Shown here piece by piece: positions 24,247 through 63,114 of a stretch of DNA of 64,000 bases. Both the position numbers and the translations under genes were made by a program. The DNA comes from Candidatus Arsenophonus triatominarum. Its GTDB lineage: Bacteria; Pseudomonadota; Gammaproteobacteria; Enterobacterales; Enterobacteriaceae. The stretch covers positions 310,001-374,000 of the forward strand of contig NZ_LWMI01000010.1 in assembly GCF_001640365.1 (NCBI RefSeq). Reading direction: 5' to 3'. A model generated the notes under the pieces. That model worked only from the letters and a program-made list of their open reading frames with translations. It was not told where the DNA came from and made no database searches. The first letter of the stretch is position 1; every line of letters starts with the position of its first letter.

Positions 24247-24507
24247 CCTTAATATACAAATAATTTGCTGCAGCAAAATTTCTGTGTAATCAGTTTAATA
24301 AAATCCAGATTTAAAAAGAAGTCAGCGGCAAATTTTAATATTAAGCGTGCAATTTCAGTCAGCTCTATTTTTTATCTAATATTTTATTATTTCTTATAGT
24401 AGATAACTTCTTTGTTAATAAGTGAGATTGTTGTCATAATACACTGAAAATATTTGGCAAAATTATGCCAATATCAGTCAAAACGGTAGTATTATTTGGA
24501 GCCAAAT

Positions 24508-25752
24508 ATGGAGCATTATCATACCGACCAATTATTATCGCTGAAGGAAGCATTAAATAATATATTTACCCTAATCACCCCAATTGTAGAAAAAGAAATT
24601 ATCCCACTAACAGAATCAATTAATCGCATTACTGCCAGAGAAATTATATCGCCAATTAATGTCCCTCCATTCGATAATTCAGCCATGGATGGTTATGCAA
24701 TACGCTTTAATGATTGGCATGACGCCGCCCCATTGATTGTTGCGGGTAAAGCTCTAGCTGGTTCTCCTTTTCGTGATCCGCTGCCAGCCAAGTCTTGTAT
24801 TCGCATTATGACAGGAGCGCCGATCCCCTCTGGCGTTGATACGGTCATCATGCAAGAAAACACCCGGTTAGTTGAAAATACCATTAGTTTCACTCAGCCA
24901 ATAAAACCAGGTAGTAATATTCGTTTTGCCGGCGAAGATATTCGACAAGGTGATACGGTATTGACAATAGGCAGCAAACTTTCTGCCACTCAGATATCCC
25001 TTATTGCATCATTGGGAGTAAGTGAGATTGAAGTTTTTCGCCAGTTGAAAGTGGCTATTTTCTCTACTGGCGATGAACTACAAACTATTGGCCAGCCACT
25101 GGCTGCCGGTCAAATCTATGATACCAATCGGCTGGCAATACGCTTGATGTTAGAAAAAATGAACTGCCAAGTGATTGATTTAGGAATTATTGCCGATGAG
25201 CCTGGCAAACTCTATCAAGCGTTTAAACAAGCGGATCAACAAGCCGATCTGGTTATTAGCAGCGGTGGTGTGTCGGTGGGGAAAGCTGATTATACCAAGC
25301 AGATCCTTAATGAAATAGGCAGCATCAATTTTTGGCAACTGGCAATCAAACCAGGTAAACCATTTGCCTTTGGTAAACTAAAATCTGCTTGGTTTTGTGG
25401 TTTACCCGGTAATGCTGTATCCGCTATAGTCACCTTTTATCAACTGGTACAACCCATTATCAATCACCTTTCCGCTTTTAGCCAATGGCAAAGTACACCC
25501 TATTTAAAAGCGCGCACCACCAGCCTGATAAAAACATCACCAGGACGCCGCCTTGAGTTCCAACGAGGGGTTGCCAGGGTAAATTCTCAAGCCGATTTAG
25601 AGGTAACCCCCATGCCACAACAAGGTTCACACATTTTGAGTTCCTTTAACCAAAGTAACTGTTTTATCGTTTTAGAGCAAAATCGTGGCGCGGTTGACGC
25701 AGGTGAATTAGTTGACATTGAGTATTTTAATCATTTATTAATAAGTGAATAA
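24508..25752 (+). CDS. moeA: Molybdopterin molybdenumtransferase
   Basis: 414 residues from ATG 24508, seven bases after a TTGGAG ribosome site; the TTG at 24496 is inside that site. MoeA inserts molybdate into adenylylated molybdopterin to give the finished cofactor. Domains I, II and IV surround the MoCF-like domain III: PPFDNSAMDGYAI (about 50-62), GEDIRQGD, IFSTGDEL (about 184-191), QIYDTNR, SSGGVSVGKADYTK (about 250-263), KPGKPFAFGK and GLPGNAVSA. All are complete. It forms an operon with moeB, with two bases between stop and ATG. Other Moco genes lie at 53-55 kb. Confidence 0.95.
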   Translation: MEHYHTDQLLSLKEALNNIFTLITPIVEKEIIPLTESINRITAREIISPINVPPFDNSAMDGYAIRFNDWHDAAPLIVAGKALAGSPFRDPLPAKSCIRIMTGAPIPSGVDTVIMQENTRLVENTISFTQPIKPGSNIRFAGEDIRQGDTVLTIGSKLSATQISLIASLGVSEIEVFRQLKVAIFSTGDELQTIGQPLAAGQIYDTNRLAIRLMLEKMNCQVIDLGIIADEPGKLYQAFKQADQQADLVISSGGVSVGKADYTKQILNEIGSINFWQLAIKPGKPFAFGKLKSAWFCGLPGNAVSAIVTFYQLVQPIINHLSAFSQWQSTPYLKARTTSLIKTSPGRRLEFQRGVARVNSQADLEVTPMPQQGSHILSSFNQSNCFIVLEQNRGAVDAGELVDIEYFNHLLISE

Positions 25753-25754
25753 GT

Positions 25755-26516
25755 ATGGCTATTGAATTATCTGATCAAGAGTTACTCCGTTATAATCGCC
25801 AAATTATTTTACAAAACTTCGATTTTGACGGACAAGAAAAACTAAAAGCAGCAAAAGTGTTGATTGTCGGAATGGGTGGTTTAGGTTGTGCCGCCGCTCA
25901 ATATTTAGCCGCAGCAGGCATCGGGCAGCTGACATTATTGGATTTTGATACCGTTTCTCTACCAAATTTGCAACGGCAAATCCTATATAACGTCCAATCT
26001 ATCGGTAGCGCAAAAGTTGACTCGGCCAAAACCACATTACATAAAATAAATCCGTACATAGAAATTTCTACGGTTAATAGAAAACTGGCAGAATATGAAC
26101 TGAATACTTTAATCAAACAACAAGATGTAATTGTTGATTGTACCGATAATGTGACTATTCGCGAACAGCTTAATCACCTATGTTTAACGCTAAAGCGCCC
26201 ATTAATATCAGGTGCAGCTATTCGCATGGAAGGACAACTGGTGGTATTAACTTATCAAGATAATACCCCCTGCTATCACTGTTTAAGTCGTTTATTTGGT
26301 GAAAATAATCTCTCTTGCATCGAAACCGGCGTTATGTCTCCACTGGTTGGTATTATTGGTAGCTTGCAAGCGATGGAAACACTAAAATTACTCACTAACT
26401 ATGGTAAAATTATCAGCGGAAAAGTGCTATTTTATGATGCTATGTCAACAGAATTTCGAACGATTAATTTAATGCCTGATCCTAATTGTGAAATCTGTCA
26501 GGCAACCACCATATAG
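25755..26516 (+). CDS. moeB: Molybdopterin-synthase adenylyltransferase
   Basis: 253 residues. MoeB adenylates the C-terminal Gly-Gly of MoaD so that it can be charged with sulfur. It is an E1-like Rossmann enzyme: RYNRQIILQNFDFDGQEKL (arginine finger, about 13-31), VLIVGMGGLGCAAAQYLA (nucleotide binding, about 36-53), LLDFDTVSLPNLQRQ, DCTDNVTIR, and two zinc Cys pairs CYHC (about 172-175) and CEIC (about 246-249). Complete. It relies on MoaD, whose GG tail is intact at 53.46 kb. Confidence 0.95.
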   Translation: MAIELSDQELLRYNRQIILQNFDFDGQEKLKAAKVLIVGMGGLGCAAAQYLAAAGIGQLTLLDFDTVSLPNLQRQILYNVQSIGSAKVDSAKTTLHKINPYIEISTVNRKLAEYELNTLIKQQDVIVDCTDNVTIREQLNHLCLTLKRPLISGAAIRMEGQLVVLTYQDNTPCYHCLSRLFGENNLSCIETGVMSPLVGIIGSLQAMETLKLLTNYGKIISGKVLFYDAMSTEFRTINLMPDPNCEICQATTI

Positions 26517-51176: not shown

Positions 51177-52042
51177 CAATAGCTATATTTAATGCGGATA
51201 AAGGCCAAGATTCGATTGAATTGACACAACGATTGGTAAAATCGACGACTTTCTCTAAAGTCTTACTACTCAATAATAATCAACAAGTTGCTGAAACAAT
51301 CAATAATCGTAAAGCACTTTTAGTGGTACATTTTCCGCAAAATTTTAGTGCTCAGCTGGCACAAGGAAAATCGACGCCGGTTCAACTAATACTTGATGGT
51401 AGAAACTCTAATAGTGCCCAAATCGCCGCTAACACAGTTAGCCATGTTATTAAAATTATCAACAACAATTAACAAACCAGCAGATAGCGCATAATAATAG
51501 CGAATTAATCATTCATCATTGGTATAACCCTAATCTTGATTACAAATGGTTTATTGTCCCATCCCTGGTAGCATTAATTACTACCATTGGTGTATTAGTC
51601 GTCACTTCATTGTTAATTGCCCGTGAACAAGGAACACTCGATCAGTTACTGGTTTCACCTCTGACTCCCTGACAGATCTTTATTGGTAAAGCAGTGCCAG
51701 CATTACTTATTGCCACCTTTCAGGCAACATTGGTGCTGATTATTGGGATTTTCTGTTACAAAATTTCATTTTCCGGTTCATTGTTTATACTACGATGACG
51801 ATTTATGGTTTGTCATTAGTGCGTTTTGGTTTATTGATCTCCGCTATATGCTCAACTCAGCAACAAGCTTTTATTGGTGTATTTGTCTTTATGATGCCGT
51901 CAGTATTGCTATCAGATTATGTTTCACCAATAGAAAATATGCCGATTTGGCCGGACTATGGCACAACTTGTGGCCATTGCTAATTATTTCATTATGTACC
52001 ACAAGCCTGGCTTATTGGTTATTTCGCCGAAAATTTGCCTAA
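51177..52042 (+). pseudogene. ybhR: YbhR-like ABC-2 transporter permease, broken
   Basis: Permease of the YbhFSR-type ABC exporter. Pieces: AIAIFNADKGQDSIELTQRL, KALLVVHFPQNFSAQLAQGK, VQLILDGRNSNSAQIAANTV, then a stop; [36 protein letters not shown], a second stop; [20 protein letters not shown]; after a frame change [40 protein letters not shown]; then a deletion of about 35 codons before [20 protein letters not shown]. The N-terminus is replaced by the IS701-like element. Neighbouring ybhM-ybhQ of E. coli are absent. Confidence 0.88.
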
Positions 52043-52104: not shown

Positions 52105-52815
52105 TTAACGGCGATCGCCTAAAATACGTAACATCATTAAGAACAAGTTAATAAAATCTAAATAGAGTGTCAATGCACCAAGAATAGCATATTTACGCAT
52201 ACCTTCTTGATCACTGCTATCAATTTGGCTGCCCATGTCTTTCAGTTTCTGTGTATCATAAGCCGTCAAACCTGCAAAAATTAATACACCGGCGTAGGTG
52301 ATAACCAACGTTAAGCCAGAACTTTGCAGCCAAATATTGACCAATGAAGCAATAATTAGCCCGATTAGTGCCATAAATAAGAAACTACCCATACCACTTA
52401 AGCTACGTTTGGTTGTATAACCATAAAAACTAAGTGCCCCAAACATAGCAGCAGTGATAAAGAAGGTGCTGGCAACCGAAGCACCAGTGTAGGCAACTAA
52501 TACTAGAGAAATGGTTAAGCCTGTCAGCGCCGAGTAGAGCATAAACATGGCCGTTGCCAGCGCGCCACTCAATTTGGGCAACAGAAATGATAATCCTATG
52601 ACTAATGCAAATTCAGCAACAATGAGGCCTATCAATACCCAACTATGCGTCGCCAGATACATAATAATATTACTATTATTAATCCCATACCAAGCAACAA
52701 ACGCAGTTAATAACAAACCTACCGCCATCCAGCCGTATACTTGCGCCATATAGGTTTGAATACCTGCGCCAGCGCGCTGGACGATCGAATCATTTTGATG
52801 TTCAAATCGATCCAT
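52105..52815 (-). CDS. ybhL: YbhL, BAX inhibitor-1 family membrane protein
   Basis: 236 residues from ATG 52813-52815 after GAGGG; the longer frame adds six unlikely residues. An inner membrane protein of the UPF0005/BI-1 family with seven hydrophobic segments, proposed to be a pH-sensitive Ca2+ leak channel in homologues; role in bacteria not settled. Seen: DSIVQRAGAGIQTYMAQVYG, MLYSALTGLTISLVLVAYTG, FFITAAMFGALSFYGYTTKR, ITYAGVLIFAGLTAYDTQKL (conserved YDTQ) and ALTLYLDFINLFLMMLRILG. Full length and intact. Located between ybhR and moaE as in E. coli. Confidence 0.95.
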   Translation of the reverse strand: MDRFEHQNDSIVQRAGAGIQTYMAQVYGWMAVGLLLTAFVAWYGINNSNIIMYLATHSWVLIGLIVAEFALVIGLSFLLPKLSGALATAMFMLYSALTGLTISLVLVAYTGASVASTFFITAAMFGALSFYGYTTKRSLSGMGSFLFMALIGLIIASLVNIWLQSSGLTLVITYAGVLIFAGLTAYDTQKLKDMGSQIDSSDQEGMRKYAILGALTLYLDFINLFLMMLRILGDRR

Positions 52816-53003
52816 TATGATTACCCTCATCACTTGAGTTAAAAAGATAAAGCTATTTAGTAAACTAAATAACTCAGTAAACTTAAGTTAAGTCTATCAT
52901 AATTTCTGGCTAAAACCATGGTTTGATATGCGCAAATAAGAGAAGGTTTTACATTACTTTTACTTTATTTAGCTAAATTTCAATAAATTCAATAAAAATT
53001 GTG

Positions 53004-53462
53004 TTACCAACGCTGAAATGCGGCTTGATCACTCGGTCTGGCCTCAACCCAACGACTGTTTTGCCCTTGCGCTAAATGCTCTTTTTTCCAAAATGGCACT
53101 TTTGTTTTCATATAATCCATAATAAATTCTGCGGCTAAAAAAGCAGTGTTACGATGGACGCTAGTAACTCCAACAAACACGATTTCCTCACCCGGCTGTA
53201 AAGTACCAATCCGATGAATAATACAGATACGTTGCAATTGCCAACGACCACGCGCTTCATTGGCAATATCCTGTAACGCTTTCTCTGTCATGACAGGATA
53301 ATGTTCAAGAGTGAGGGCGTTAATACTATCACCCAAGTTGTGACTACGCACTTTACCTGTGAAAGTAACCACCGCACCATCATCATGACATCGTGCTAAC
53401 CATTCATATTGTTCACCGACATTAAAATTCGCTTGTTGAATAAGCAATCGTGTATCTGTCAT
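53004..53462 (-). CDS. moaE: Molybdopterin synthase catalytic subunit
   Basis: 152 residues. MoaE, with MoaD, adds two sulfurs to cyclic pyranopterin monophosphate to form molybdopterin. Seen: DDGAVVTFTGKVRSHNLGD (about 27-45), LEHYPVMTEKAL, IHRIGTLQPGEEIVFVGVTS, HRNTAFLAAEFIMDYMKTKV and PFWKKEHL, including the catalytic lysines of the KTKVPFWKKE block. Its ATG directly follows the moaD stop codon, and the ribosome site GGGAGG is built from the codons for the MoaD Gly-Gly tail, so the two genes are tightly coupled. Confidence 0.96.
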   Translation of the reverse strand: MTDTRLLIQQANFNVGEQYEWLARCHDDGAVVTFTGKVRSHNLGDSINALTLEHYPVMTEKALQDIANEARGRWQLQRICIIHRIGTLQPGEEIVFVGVTSVHRNTAFLAAEFIMDYMKTKVPFWKKEHLAQGQNSRWVEARPSDQAAFQRW

Positions 53463-53708
53463 TTATCCTCCCGTTACCGGTGGAAAAAATGCGATTTCAT
53501 CGCCGGCAGTTAATGGATGATCTGACTGTACAAAGGTATGATTGACCGCAAAAAGCAGTTTTTTGTGTTCTAGTGTTAATGCCCAGCGCTCACCGCGTTG
53601 GCTTAATGCATCACGTAATTCTTCTACCGTAGAATAGCGATTTTCTAACTCTAACCTATCAGTGCCTGTCAATTCACGGACTTGGGCAAAAAAAAGCACT
53701 TTAATCAT
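53463..53708 (-). CDS. moaD: Molybdopterin synthase sulfur carrier subunit
   Basis: 81 residues with a ubiquitin-like fold. It starts [20 protein letters not shown] and ends FFPPVTGG; the terminal Gly-Gly is adenylated by MoeB and carries the thiocarboxylate used by MoaE. Length matches E. coli. It overlaps the moaC stop by four bases (ATGA), a sign of translational coupling. Confidence 0.96.
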
Positions 53709-54184
53709 GGTGTTACCTTAAAATCAACGGATTTACCACCCGTTTTTTCCAATAATCTAACCGCACTAATCACCATATCTTTCTGCATCGCTTTACACAT
53801 ATCATAAATGGTTAATGCGGCAATTGATGCAGCGGTCAACGCTTCCATTTCAACGCCAGTTTTACCGGATAACCGACAATATGACTCAATTCGAATGTAA
53901 TTATTGCTTATTTGTGCTTCCAGTAAAACTTCCACTTTACTGAGTAATAGCGGATGGCAAAGCGGGATCAGATCCCACGTCTTTTTGGCGGCCTGAATAC
54001 CAGCAATCCGCGCAGTAGCAAAAACATCACCTTTATGATGACTACCATTGATAATCATATTAAGAGTCTTAGCATTCATTGTTATAAATGCTTCAGCCCG
54101 CGCTTCACGTATGGTTTCCGCTTTAGCAGCCACATCCACCATATGCGCCTCACCCGCTGAGTTGATATGTGTTAATTGAGACAT
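53705..54184 (-). CDS. moaC: Cyclic pyranopterin monophosphate synthase
   Basis: 159 residues. MoaC acts after MoaA to close the cyclic phosphate and form cPMP. Seen: [20 protein letters not shown] (about 6-25), [36 protein letters not shown] (active-site His), [31 protein letters not shown] (catalytic Lys) and [12 protein letters not shown]. Intact. moaB, which lies between moaA and moaC in E. coli, is absent; only about 32 bp separate moaC from moaA. Confidence 0.96.
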
Positions 54185-54216: not shown

Positions 54217-55197
54217 TTATCCCCCAATAATTGAAAGATTTGACGTGATACCACTATCTCCTTGATGAAGAAAATGGCTTTCACGTTTTAACTGTAATTC
54301 TGCCTGAATACGTGTTTTTAATGCCTCAGATTGGGATGCATCAACCAATAGATCGCGTAAAATAATACTGCGCTCGCCAAACAGACAGAGATGAAGATGA
54401 CCGATAGGAGAGACCCGTAAGCGATTACAACTTTGACAAAAATTCTTCTCATAAGGCATGATTAAACCAATTTCACCACAGTAATCAGGGTGCTTAAAAA
54501 CCTGGGCCGGTCCATCAGAACGACAGCGTGGTACTTGCTGCCAATTTTGCTCTAATAAGCGCCGCCGGATCTTTTCGCCTGAGACATGGTGACGACGAAA
54601 TATTTTACCACTCTCGCCAGTTTTCATTAATTCAATAAATCGTAGTTGTATTGACCGCAATTTGATCCAGTTTATAAAACTCGCTAAATTACTGTCATTG
54701 ATGTTTTTCATCAACACAACATTGACTTTTATTTTGTCATAACCTGCCTCTAAAGCAGCATCAATCCCTGCCATGACTTGAAAAAATTTATCTTGCCCGG
54801 TAATGGCTAAAAACTGCCGCGGATCAAAACTATCAACACTCACATTAATGTCCGTTAAACCTGCATTTTTCCACTGGCTAACATTTTTGGCCAGCCGATA
54901 ACCATTAGTAGTTACGGCAATTTTTTTGATCGCATGGTTTTGCTTGATGGTAGCAATAATGTCAATAAAATCACGACGCATGGTGGGTTCGCCGCCGGTT
55001 AAGCGAATTTTTTCGGTACCAAGCTCAGCGAAAGCTTTAGTCAGAAAAGCAATTTCCTGCAACGATAAAAAGGCTTGATCACCATTCGATTTATATCCAT
55101 TTGGTAGACAATATGTGCAGCGAAAATTACATACATCCGTTATGGATAGTCTTAAGTAGTAGAATTTACGGGCAAAAGTATCAATAAGTTGAGTCAT
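54217..55197 (-). CDS. moaA: GTP 3',8-cyclase (radical SAM)
   Basis: 326 residues from ATG 55195-55197, preceded at the right distance by GGAAAGG; an earlier in-frame start at 55245 would lie inside the riboswitch. MoaA converts GTP to 3',8-cyclo-7,8-dihydro-GTP, the first Moco step. The radical SAM cluster motif CNFRCTYC has Cys23, Cys27 and Cys30; the C-terminal cluster is [26 protein letters not shown]-like [13 protein letters not shown] and the C-terminal Gly-Gly (NLSIIGG) are present. All required residues are kept, so it should be active. Expression is expected to be controlled by the Moco RNA element just upstream. Confidence 0.96.
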
Positions 55198-55203
55198 AAT
55201 AAC

Positions 55204-55319
55204 GCCTTTCCAAATATGGGAGATGCAGTCATTTCTACCTTGCACCCTGGTGGCTGATAAATGCCACGGCCTTAATACCCTATTTAAATGTTAAGTTCAC
55301 AAACTTAGGTAAAAAGGCT
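55204..55319 (-). promoter_or_regulatory. Molybdenum cofactor (Moco) riboswitch upstream of moaA
   Basis: On the complement the leader contains GGCCGTGGCA, GCCACCAGGGTGCAAGG, AGAAATGACTGC and ATCTCCCATATTTGG in the order known from the E. coli moaA leader. A closing helix pairs GCCTTT (55313-55318) with AAAGGC (55204-55209). The second strand contains the moaA ribosome site, so folding should block translation when cofactor is plentiful. Recognised from memory of the motif; covariance scoring was not possible. Confidence 0.85.
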
Positions 55320-55467
55320 AGGAGTTGATAACACCACATACAATAATAGCGTAATGTGATGGTTGCTATAAATCTTATTGCTAAATATTTAAAAAAGCGA
55401 TTAAGCACTCAAATCTATAGGTTGCAATTCAACAAGTTAATCAATTAGCTGAAAATAATGTAATATA

Positions 55468-55745
55468 ACCTGAGTTCGGGATAAGCATTATCAATTATGC
55501 TTGAAGATATGTTCCTGCCACCGGCATCTTTGGTTTAGATGGAATTAAACAATATGCAACCCGCCCTGCTAATAAATTCACTACAAAGTTAGCACGTGAG
55601 CGGTGCCGCGTATGCTCTCTATCTGACAAAGATTTTTTAACTCATCAAATACCGTTTCAATGACAGAATGATGGCGCGAGATGGCTTTGTCGAAACAAGT
55701 CTGTTCAACAGGCTTCATTTTCTTCTTGATATTCGTTATAAGGTT
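55468..55745 (-). mobile_element. IS982 family element, copy v, fragment
   Basis: Terminal repeat ACCTGAGTTCGGGATAAG at 55468 and the transposase C-terminal region. Cut at 55745 by an IS701-like element. Upstream, 55320-55467 is AT-rich without a gene I can support. Confidence 0.85.
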
Positions 55746-60508: not shown

Positions 60509-60743
60509 AAATTGACCACCCCATGAGCGAAGTGCCGCAAGCCATAATCTTTACCATGGTTTCCATCACAACAGTTCGGACACTATCAGGGGGTTGGCGA
60601 TTAAGCCAATTGAGCCAGCGTTGACCAAATTGAAAAACATGACTAAAACGCGGTGACATAAAAGGGACCAAAAGATTGAGAAATAGGTATCGGGTTATAC
60701 CAGTACTAACAAGCAATGACAAGTCGTCGCCATAGGCGACCAT
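60509..60743 (-). other. Unidentified open frame, possible membrane protein fragment
   Basis: Open from ATG 60741-60743 to the IS3 end: MVAYGDDLSLLVSTGITRYL, FLNLLVPFMSPRFSHVFQFG, LNRQPPDSVRTVVMETMVKI and MACGTSLMGWSI. Hydrophobic segments suggest a membrane protein cut by the IS3. I do not recognise it. It could be a chance frame. Confidence 0.35.
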
Positions 60744-60776
60744 CTTGGTAAAGAACTAAACCAACCCGCTGCCAAT

Positions 60777-61028
60777 ATGCAACTAACCGAAAAAATTGCA
60801 ATGATTGAAAAACACATTTGCCAACAGAAAATTGATGCGGTTATCGTTGGTCCAGTAACCGATACATCAAGCCTACCAGATCGAATCGTGCTCCAAAGAA
60901 AACTCGCTGACCAAAATGTCTGTTACCGTCATGATCGAGACTTATTGCGCCAGGCTATTGAAGACATGGCACACAAAATTCATCAACTTAAACCTTTTAA
61001 CTTATCTCCTTACCCGAATGCCAGATAG
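60777..61028 (+). other. Unidentified open frame (83 residues)
   Basis: MQLTEKIAMIEKHICQQKID, AVIVGPVTDTSSLPDRIVLQ, LADQNVCYRHDRDLLRQAIE, ending SPYPNAR. The frame is also open upstream to about 60720 (VVAIGDHLGKELNQPAAN), so this may be the C-terminal part of a larger truncated protein. Coding-like composition; family unknown. It is convergent with uvrB. Confidence 0.45.
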
Positions 61029-61101: not shown

Positions 61102-63114
61102 TTAAGAATTAGCAATAAACTGTTCACGTAGCAATTGAATTTGATCGCGTAAACTGGCTGCTTGTTCAAATTCAAGATCTTGTGCATAACGATACATTTG
61201 TGCTTCTAACGTCTGAATTTTTAGCTCCAATTCTTTGGCCGAAAGTTTCTGATAATCTTCGATAATCGGTGATACTTGCGGTTGTTTATGTTTACCTTTT
61301 GCCGATACCGGTACACCGACTTGTAAAATATCGCCAACTTTTTTATTTAAACCTTTAGGCACAATACCATGCTGTTGATTAAAGGCGATTTGCTTTTCGC
61401 GACGACGTTCCGTTTCTTTAATCGCTTTTGCCATTGAATCAGTAACCTTATCGCCATATAAAATAGCTTTACCTTTCAGGTTACGCGCTGCACGCCCAAT
61501 CGTTTGAATTAATGAACGCTCTGAACGTAAAAATCCTTCTTTATCTGCGTCTAAGATAGCAACTAGTGATACCTCTGGCATGTCCAACCCTTCACGCAAC
61601 AAGTTGATGCCCACTAAAACATCAAATAAGCCTAATCGTAAATCACGAATAATTTCGACCCGTTCAACGGTATCAATATCTGAATGCAAATAACGAACCT
61701 TTATGTCATGTTCTTGCAGATAATCGGTCAAATCTTCTGCCATTCTTTTGGTTAACGTTGTTACTAGCACTCGTTCATTTACCGCTGTACGCAAATTGAT
61801 TTCAGATAACAGATCATCAACCTGAGTGGCTACCGGACGAACTTCAATTTCGGGATCGAGTAAGCCAGTTGGCCGGACAACTTGCTCAATAATTTCATTC
61901 GCCGATTTTTCCAATTCATACTTACCTGGCGTGGCAGAAATATAAATTGTTTGTGGGGAAAGTGCTTCAAATTCCTCAAAACGTAACGGGCGATTATCCA
62001 ACGCAGAAGGTAAGCGAAAACCATATTCTACCAATGTCTCTTTACGGGAGCGATCACCACGATACATACCGCCAATCTGTGGGATGGTGACATGCGATTC
62101 ATCAATAACTAATAAACCATCTGCGGGTAAATAGTCAAACAACGTTGGTGGTGGTTCATCAGTTGCACGGCCAGAAAGATAACGTGAATAATTTTCAATA
62201 CCAGAACAATAACCCAATTCATTCATCATCTCCAAATCAAACTGGGTACGCTGTGTTAACCGCTGCTCCTCAACTAGTTTACTATTTTCCAGTAGTAATT
62301 TACGTCTTTGTGCCAATTCAGTTTTAATCTGCTCCATGGCTTCAAGGATACGCTCACGTGGAGTTACATAGTGGGTTTTAGGATAAATGGTAAATCGCGG
62401 TACATTATGTTGGATCTGTCCGGTTAAGGGATCAAAAAGCGCTAGCCGTTCTACTTCCTCATCAAATAATTCAACTCGTAACGCATATTGATCTGATTCG
62501 GCAGGAAAAATATCAATCACTTCCCCCCTAACTCTAAATGTACCTCGCTGAAATGCTTGATCATTGCGGCTATATTGCAAATCGGCCAGGCGGCGTAAGA
62601 TAGCTCGCTGATCAATAATCATACCTTTGGTTAAATGAAGCATCATTTTTAGATAGCTATCAGGATCACCTAAACCATAAATCGCTGATACCGAAGCAAC
62701 AACAATAACATCACGTCTTTCAAGCAGTGCTTTAGTGGCAGAGAGTCGCATCTGTTCAATATGTTCGTTAATAGAAGCGTCTTTTTCAATAAAGGTATCG
62801 GAGCTTGGAACATACGCTTCTGGTTGATAATAATCATAATAAGAAACAAAATATTCCACCGCATTGTCAGGAAAAAAAGCCTTCATCTCACTATATAATT
62901 GTGCAGCCAACGTCTTATTGTGAGCCATTACCATTACAGGGCGGTTAACCTGCTCAATAACGTTAGCGATAGTGAATGTTTTACCCGATCCGGTGACACC
63001 AAGTAAGGTTTGATGAGCCAATCCATCATTAAGACCTTCGATTAATTTCTTTATAGCTGCGGGCTGATCACCGGCAGGTTGAAATTCAGCATGTAATTTG
63101 AAGACTTTACTCAT
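61102..63114 (-). CDS. uvrB: Excinuclease ABC subunit B
   Basis: 670 residues, full length. UvrB is the DNA-damage verification helicase of nucleotide excision repair; it receives DNA from UvrA and recruits UvrC. Seen: [18 protein letters not shown] (Walker A, 36-53), [20 protein letters not shown] (beta-hairpin, about 88-107), [20 protein letters not shown] (Walker B, about 337), [52 protein letters not shown] (motif VI) and a C-terminal UVR domain ([20 protein letters not shown]). ATG at 63112-63114, no damage. In E. coli it also lies near moaA. Confidence 0.98.

Follow-up and report, generated by a model that had tools for sequence, protein, structure and literature searches.

The Moco trait of Candidatus Arsenophonus triatominarum may, with about as much to be said for this reading as against it, have shrunk to a molybdopterin branch that serves YcbX and is controlled by a translational riboswitch of the E. 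coli moaA type. The usual respiratory enzymes are not among the potential users of Moco that we found; the sole candidate is YcbX, an enzyme that detoxifies abnormal bases of DNA. In this proposal, the riboswitch would control the molybdopterin pathway (moaACDE and moeAB, fed by modABC), which would have lost its DMSO-reductase-type clients, and probably its guanylation step (mobA), and would be kept for YcbX, a MOSC enzyme predicted, by analogy with its E. coli counterpart, to use plain Mo-molybdopterin to reduce N-hydroxylated bases.

The riboswitch was located with cmscan, which placed Rfam family RF01055 upstream of moaA on the minus strand, at positions 55187-55336 of the window (the whole 64,000-nucleotide stretch of DNA that was analysed). 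The full model (1-135) matched with 94.2 bits against a cut-off of 36 (E-value 2.5e-23 in 2,501 bases, or 6.3e-22 across the whole window), and this was the only RF01055 match in the 3.86-Mb, 94-contig assembly. An earlier note on this DNA had recognized the moaA leader as the Moco RNA motif, at 55204-55319, which is the inner part of the match; the Rfam Moco_RNA_motif model, which it had suggested running on the leader, scored above its threshold and not below it. When the model structure was mapped to the sequence, 37 of its 42 pairs were standard. The structure was also assessed in an alignment of 30 leaders, comprising this one, four from other Arsenophonus, and 25 from other genera (26 were chosen by hand from 78 non-Arsenophonus loci, and that of Haemophilus sputorum, L066, was dropped with its slice out of register). 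Across the alignment, the RF01055 structure paired 84.3% of cells, versus 36-44% for slid structures, and both-sided change occurred somewhere in 23 of the 42 pairs; neither value was reached in any of 500 shuffles, and the covariation counts retain a misaligned Serratia row (11 of 42 pairs) and three Vibrionaceae rows in which the expected position has no start codon.

The inner P1 helix joins AACUCC (55321-55326) to GGCGUU (55201-55206), both on the minus strand, with five of six pairs standard, and the minimum-energy fold of the leader reproduces it. The moaA ribosome site, GGAAAGG, was read directly at 55205-55211 of the same strand, where its placement matches that in the E. coli leader, as the accessible part of PMC2408646 describes it; the moaA ATG follows at 55197-55195. 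The 3' strand of P1 takes in the last two G of GGAAAGG, and to that extent the claim that the closing helix includes the ribosome site holds. The fold energy of the leader is only mildly below that of shuffled sequences (z -1.84; 9 of 200 shuffles equally good), too weak to serve as evidence by itself, and was set aside. With its score, its covarying pairs, and its position before a Moco gene with the ribosome site in P1, the riboswitch is an ordinary member of the known family, as the earlier note had rightly seen. Further upstream, 132 nt (55337-55468) can be aligned with four relatives. A weak promoter-like sequence directly upstream of the riboswitch (55343-55372, minus strand) was the single match of a promoter scan, no more than the 1.6 expected by chance.

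In the E. coli moaA leader the ribosome site is held by P1, which the available portion of PMC2408646 takes as repression upon ligand binding; the same portion reports that knockouts of moeA, mogA, and modC derepress a riboswitch reporter. By analogy, plentiful Moco would bind the aptamer and stabilize P1, and the stabilized P1 would hold the end of the moaA ribosome site, so that moaACDE would be translated less. When Moco is scarce, P1 would open.

Ten genes of the proposed system (moaACDE, moeAB, modABC, and ycbX) are open and without lesions. moaA (54217-55197, minus strand; 326 aa from its ATG) keeps the CX3CX2C and CX2CX13C motifs and a terminal GG, and scored 342 bits against TIGR02666 (cut-off 284) when scanned as a 342-aa frame. 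On the same strand lie moaC (53705-54184), moaD (53463-53708; GG at its end), and moaE (53004-53462), with no moaB between moaA and moaC. The plus strand carries moeA (24496-25752; the frame of the relative G001 starts four codons downstream, at 24508) and moeB (25755-26516). The molybdate transporter genes modABC lie beyond the window, about 14-17 kb past uvrB (L118:13266-15825). Each of the nine genes for biosynthesis and transport exceeded its NCBIfam equivalog cut-off, and the undamaged state previously ascribed to moaA, moaC, moaD, moaE, moeA, and moeB is thus confirmed. The MoaA protein is 91% identical to that of A. nasoniae DSM 15247 and 92% identical to that of the symbiont of the whitefly Aleurodicus floccissimus (ARAF). 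The biotin genes bioA and bioBFCD are likewise open near the Moco locus (L118:3449-8430); among relatives, bioC is broken in G007, and bioB, bioF, and bioD of G004 contain stops.

The neighbours on both sides had been described as pseudogenes, which is right in part. The genes that we take to be ybhR (51179-52039) and ybhK are broken; all that is left of the latter, 60741-61022 on the plus strand, corresponds to residues 223-316 of the 317 that G001 has, the 5' part of the gene being absent from the block, and insertion-sequence debris separates this remnant from the moaA leader. The presumed ybhL (52105-52833, adjoining moaE) and uvrB (61102-63114), however, are intact. The block that is collinear with G001 has 8 of 8 Moco genes intact, versus 11 of 30 others (Fisher one-sided p 0.0015, a value that flatters the comparison because operon genes are not independent, the set was picked post hoc, and genes scored as absent may sit elsewhere in the genome). 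The other 19 comprise 8 that are broken and 11 that are absent from the five stretches of this genome searched. The count was made by hand, starts at folE, and takes in 38 ORFs of 100 aa or more; the ten ORFs that precede folE in G001, of which nine are absent here and one is partial, are omitted, and moaD falls below the length limit. The window as a whole (1-64000) bears a dense load of insertion sequences, and its ORF lists contain many near-identical copies; seven transposase ORFs that we tested had IS630-type HTH, DDE_Tnp_4, rve, DDE_Tnp_1_3, DDE_Tnp_1, and Mutator-type domains.

Users of the cofactor were sought in the assembly with four Pfam models, for all of which E. coli gave a positive control. 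PF00174 (sulfite-oxidase-type) and PF02738 (xanthine-oxidase-type) had no match in the assembly, and PF03473 (MOSC) matched one protein, YcbX, the sole member of a Moco-enzyme family found. PF00384 (DMSO-reductase-type) matched only NuoG, which was rejected as a molybdoenzyme: it scored 670 bits against TIGR01973 (cut-off 470), and the part of a comparative survey available to us excludes NuoG as Mo-independent (PMC6147048). The earlier note had concluded that at least one molybdoenzyme is needed, and had named a genome with no molybdoenzymes as the finding that would speak against it. The assembly comes close to that state, YcbX being its only Moco-enzyme family member; the conclusion may fairly be drawn from the undamaged state of ten genes, whereas the riboswitch, which can be kept beside a broken moaA, does not warrant it.

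The same note had singled out mogA and mobA for checking, and neither was found in the assembly, whose completeness is 72.79%; the genome itself may still hold mogA and others that the assembly lacks. Among three PF12804 matches in this incomplete assembly, which we take to be of the IspD, KdsB, and GalU types, none is MobA, and PF00994 matched only MoeA. A 3-kb mogA-talB-yaaA stretch of A. nasoniae (G003) had no DNA match in the assembly, in a search run without a positive control; other stretches of G001 and G003 align with this genome at 86-94% identity (blastn), which provides a soft control. Because talB is a core gene and these other stretches do align, the mogA-talB-yaaA region is probably missing from the assembly, and the failure to find mogA does not prove that the gene is lost. 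Should it indeed be lost, the E. coli data predict that no ligand would form and that the switch would stay on, unless MoeA alone suffices.

These gaps suggest another reading, in which mogA, mobA, and perhaps a molybdoenzyme of an ordinary kind, for example formate dehydrogenase, reside in the missing part and the riboswitch serves a Moco economy that is conventional. The low completeness and the unmatched stretch are in its favour, as is the presence in G001 and G003 of DmsA, FdnG, and FdhF types (named from one copy each). We nevertheless regard it as rather unlikely, since three separate enzyme loci, together with mogA and mobA, would all need to fall in gaps, the same kind of search did find NuoG and YcbX, and neither an FdhF nor a DmsA type is seen in G004 and G007, where a broken FdnG type is the only match that is not NuoG-like. 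The FdhF type is itself frame-broken in G001, and the DmsA type holds a TGA in G003. In the window, L135, L136, and L118, the G001 stretch carrying DmsA (L132) had no match longer than 150 bases, a result in which loss and rearrangement are indistinguishable. The formate dehydrogenase types of G003 and G001 (L092, L093, L100, and L101) contain an in-frame TGA, at what we take to be the position expected for selenocysteine, and selenium use may survive in this clade. A pathway that is intact without many clients might also be thought to make molybdopterin or Moco for the insect host; this is the only point in favour of that idea, which is highly improbable given that insects synthesize their own Moco.

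Comparison with relatives limits what the riboswitch can say about function. RF01055 is present in five of nine genus genomes, this one included, and scores 90.0 bits in G001, 92.9 in G004, and 88.5 in G007, a whitefly symbiont. Because moaA is broken in G004 and G007 despite their scores, a high covariance score does not show function, and we rejected riboswitch retention as proof of it. The moa, moe, mod, and ycbX genes of G001 and G003 are undamaged, except that moeB of G001 has a gap of one base close to its end. In G004, the seven genes seen hold six lesions, which hit moaA, moaE, and ycbX (modABC was not in the stretches fetched, and the first 73 bases of moeA were unaligned). In G007, the same ten genes hold 24 lesions, with one more in folE; ycbX has an in-frame 132-nt deletion, the 5' part of moaC is unaligned, and an open frame is kept only in moaD and ycbX. 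A second PF00994 match, named molybdopterin adenylyltransferase in G001 and G007, occurs in G001, G003, G004, and G007. This gene thus persists beside a broken moaA in G004 (L116) and G007 (L130), the reverse of the situation here; the one in G007 scores above the MogA cut-off, although its match extends only to profile position 166 of 193.

The Moco genes and riboswitch of A. triatominarum could likewise be a recently orphaned relic, in which all clients and the ligand-forming step have been lost, YcbX is idle, and the remaining parts have not been orphans long enough for damage to reach them. Such decay is seen in G004 and G007 with their riboswitches still at high scores, and the failure to find mogA in the assembly fits. 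Branch ratios lean the same way without reaching significance. A parsimony count on the terminal branch gave 47 nonsynonymous and 36 synonymous changes in the ten Moco genes (ratio 0.27) and 28 and 35 in eight other genes of this genome (ratios 0.12-0.17), which are not clearly different (Fisher p 0.18); nor is the Moco set clearly different from the largely dead one of G007 (122 and 56; Fisher p 0.07). The corresponding ratios for Moco and other genes are 0.38 versus 0.23-0.28 in G004 and 0.44 versus 0.23-0.36 in G007. Single genes look less constrained, with five nonsynonymous changes and one synonymous in moaA (0.95) and six and two in moaE (0.58).

Other evidence makes a relic distinctly unlikely. 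Scaling the 24 lesions of G007 by synonymous changes gives about 15 expected here had the genes been unselected throughout, a rough figure that assumes equal lesion rates, and none was observed in 10 of 10 genes. Because of this difference from G007, the absence of lesions argues for recent selection on the Moco genes, and does so more strongly than the branch ratios. At 173 strongly conserved columns, MoaA has 9 departures, like G001 (8) and G003 (6), versus 16 in the broken copy of G007. MoaC, MoaD, and MoaE depart at 5 of 101, 3 of 37, and 4 of 62 such columns, compared with 4, 2, and 3 in G001 and 5, 3, and 3 in G003. The riboswitch itself is not clearly slowed, with three private changes in 150 nt, one of which disrupts a pair of P3. 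All three fall at columns that vary among the 25 outgroup leaders (0 of 3 conserved), unlike those of G004 and G007, where 3 of 5 lie at columns conserved in 23, 24, and 25 of the 25 outgroups, a hint, in numbers too small for a test, that changes here avoid conserved columns.

The proposed client, YcbX, is encoded by an intact gene in stretch L087, in an order that we take from the sequence to be pyrD-zapC-ycbX-rlmL. The protein has MOSC_N, MOSC, and Fer2 domains above their Pfam cut-offs, with no NCBIfam model above its cut-off, and its PCSRC stretch (residues 203-207) aligns with the ACSRC stretch of mARC1. Its dN/dS is 0.35 against G008 and 0.15 against G003. CysJ is the electron donor of E. 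coli YcbX. According to the accessible part of PMC3831636, neither YcbX nor YiiM of E. coli requires MobA in order to use Moco. Because E. coli YcbX works without MobA, service to YcbX alone fits a molybdopterin branch for which no mobA was found; the open-access literature that we located does not settle whether YcbX needs MogA. A point that can be raised against this reading is that G008 (1.9 Mb in 330 contigs; L126) keeps a full-length YcbX frame with no riboswitch and no PF00994 match. YcbX can therefore persist without MoeA or MogA, and that of G008 is possibly an orphan MOSC enzyme. That selection has kept uptake, the molybdopterin branch, and the riboswitch only for the supply of YcbX, with no MobA and possibly no MogA, is a tentative proposal, which we place somewhat below an even chance.

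We found no study of Moco in Arsenophonus in the open-access literature, judged by titles and the starts of abstracts. The interest of the case lies in the narrowed client set, and a closed genome is needed before it is claimed. The physiological role of YcbX and its mARC relatives is an open question on which the case bears, and the occurrence of N-hydroxylated bases under physiological conditions has been questioned, as stated in the available part of PMC10637980. If the proposal is true, keeping up Moco synthesis just to serve YcbX would count as evidence from nature that the enzyme's activity repays its cost, and the ability to withstand N-hydroxylated bases would be the Moco-dependent trait that is lost last en route to obligate symbiosis. 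The relatives add a caution, that a high riboswitch covariance score in a decaying genome does not show a working gene.

The system can be set beside several known ones. Its leader resembles that of E. coli moaABCDE (RF01055; Regulski et al. 2008, PMC2408646) in the gene it precedes, its position, its full-length match with P3, the ribosome site within P1, and the start codon at the edge of the motif. It departs from the RF01055 model in a 10-base loop insertion in the second hairpin and in the P3 pair lost to G-A on its own branch. Downstream lie moaA-moaC-moaD-moaE, without the moaB of the E. coli operon. The riboswitch, the Moco genes, and YcbX are alike in A. nasoniae, which additionally has a MogA type, formate dehydrogenase types that contain an in-frame TGA, and a DmsA type, also with a TGA. 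YcbX shares with its E. coli namesake the MOSC_N and MOSC domains, the C-terminal 2Fe-2S ferredoxin domain, and the conserved cysteine stretch; MOSC_N, MOSC, and the conserved cysteine are also those of animal mARC, whereas the ferredoxin part is as in E. coli YcbX and not as in mARC. In E. coli, YcbX is accompanied by YiiM and many DMSO-reductase-type enzymes; in the A. triatominarum assembly it is the sole Moco-enzyme family member found.
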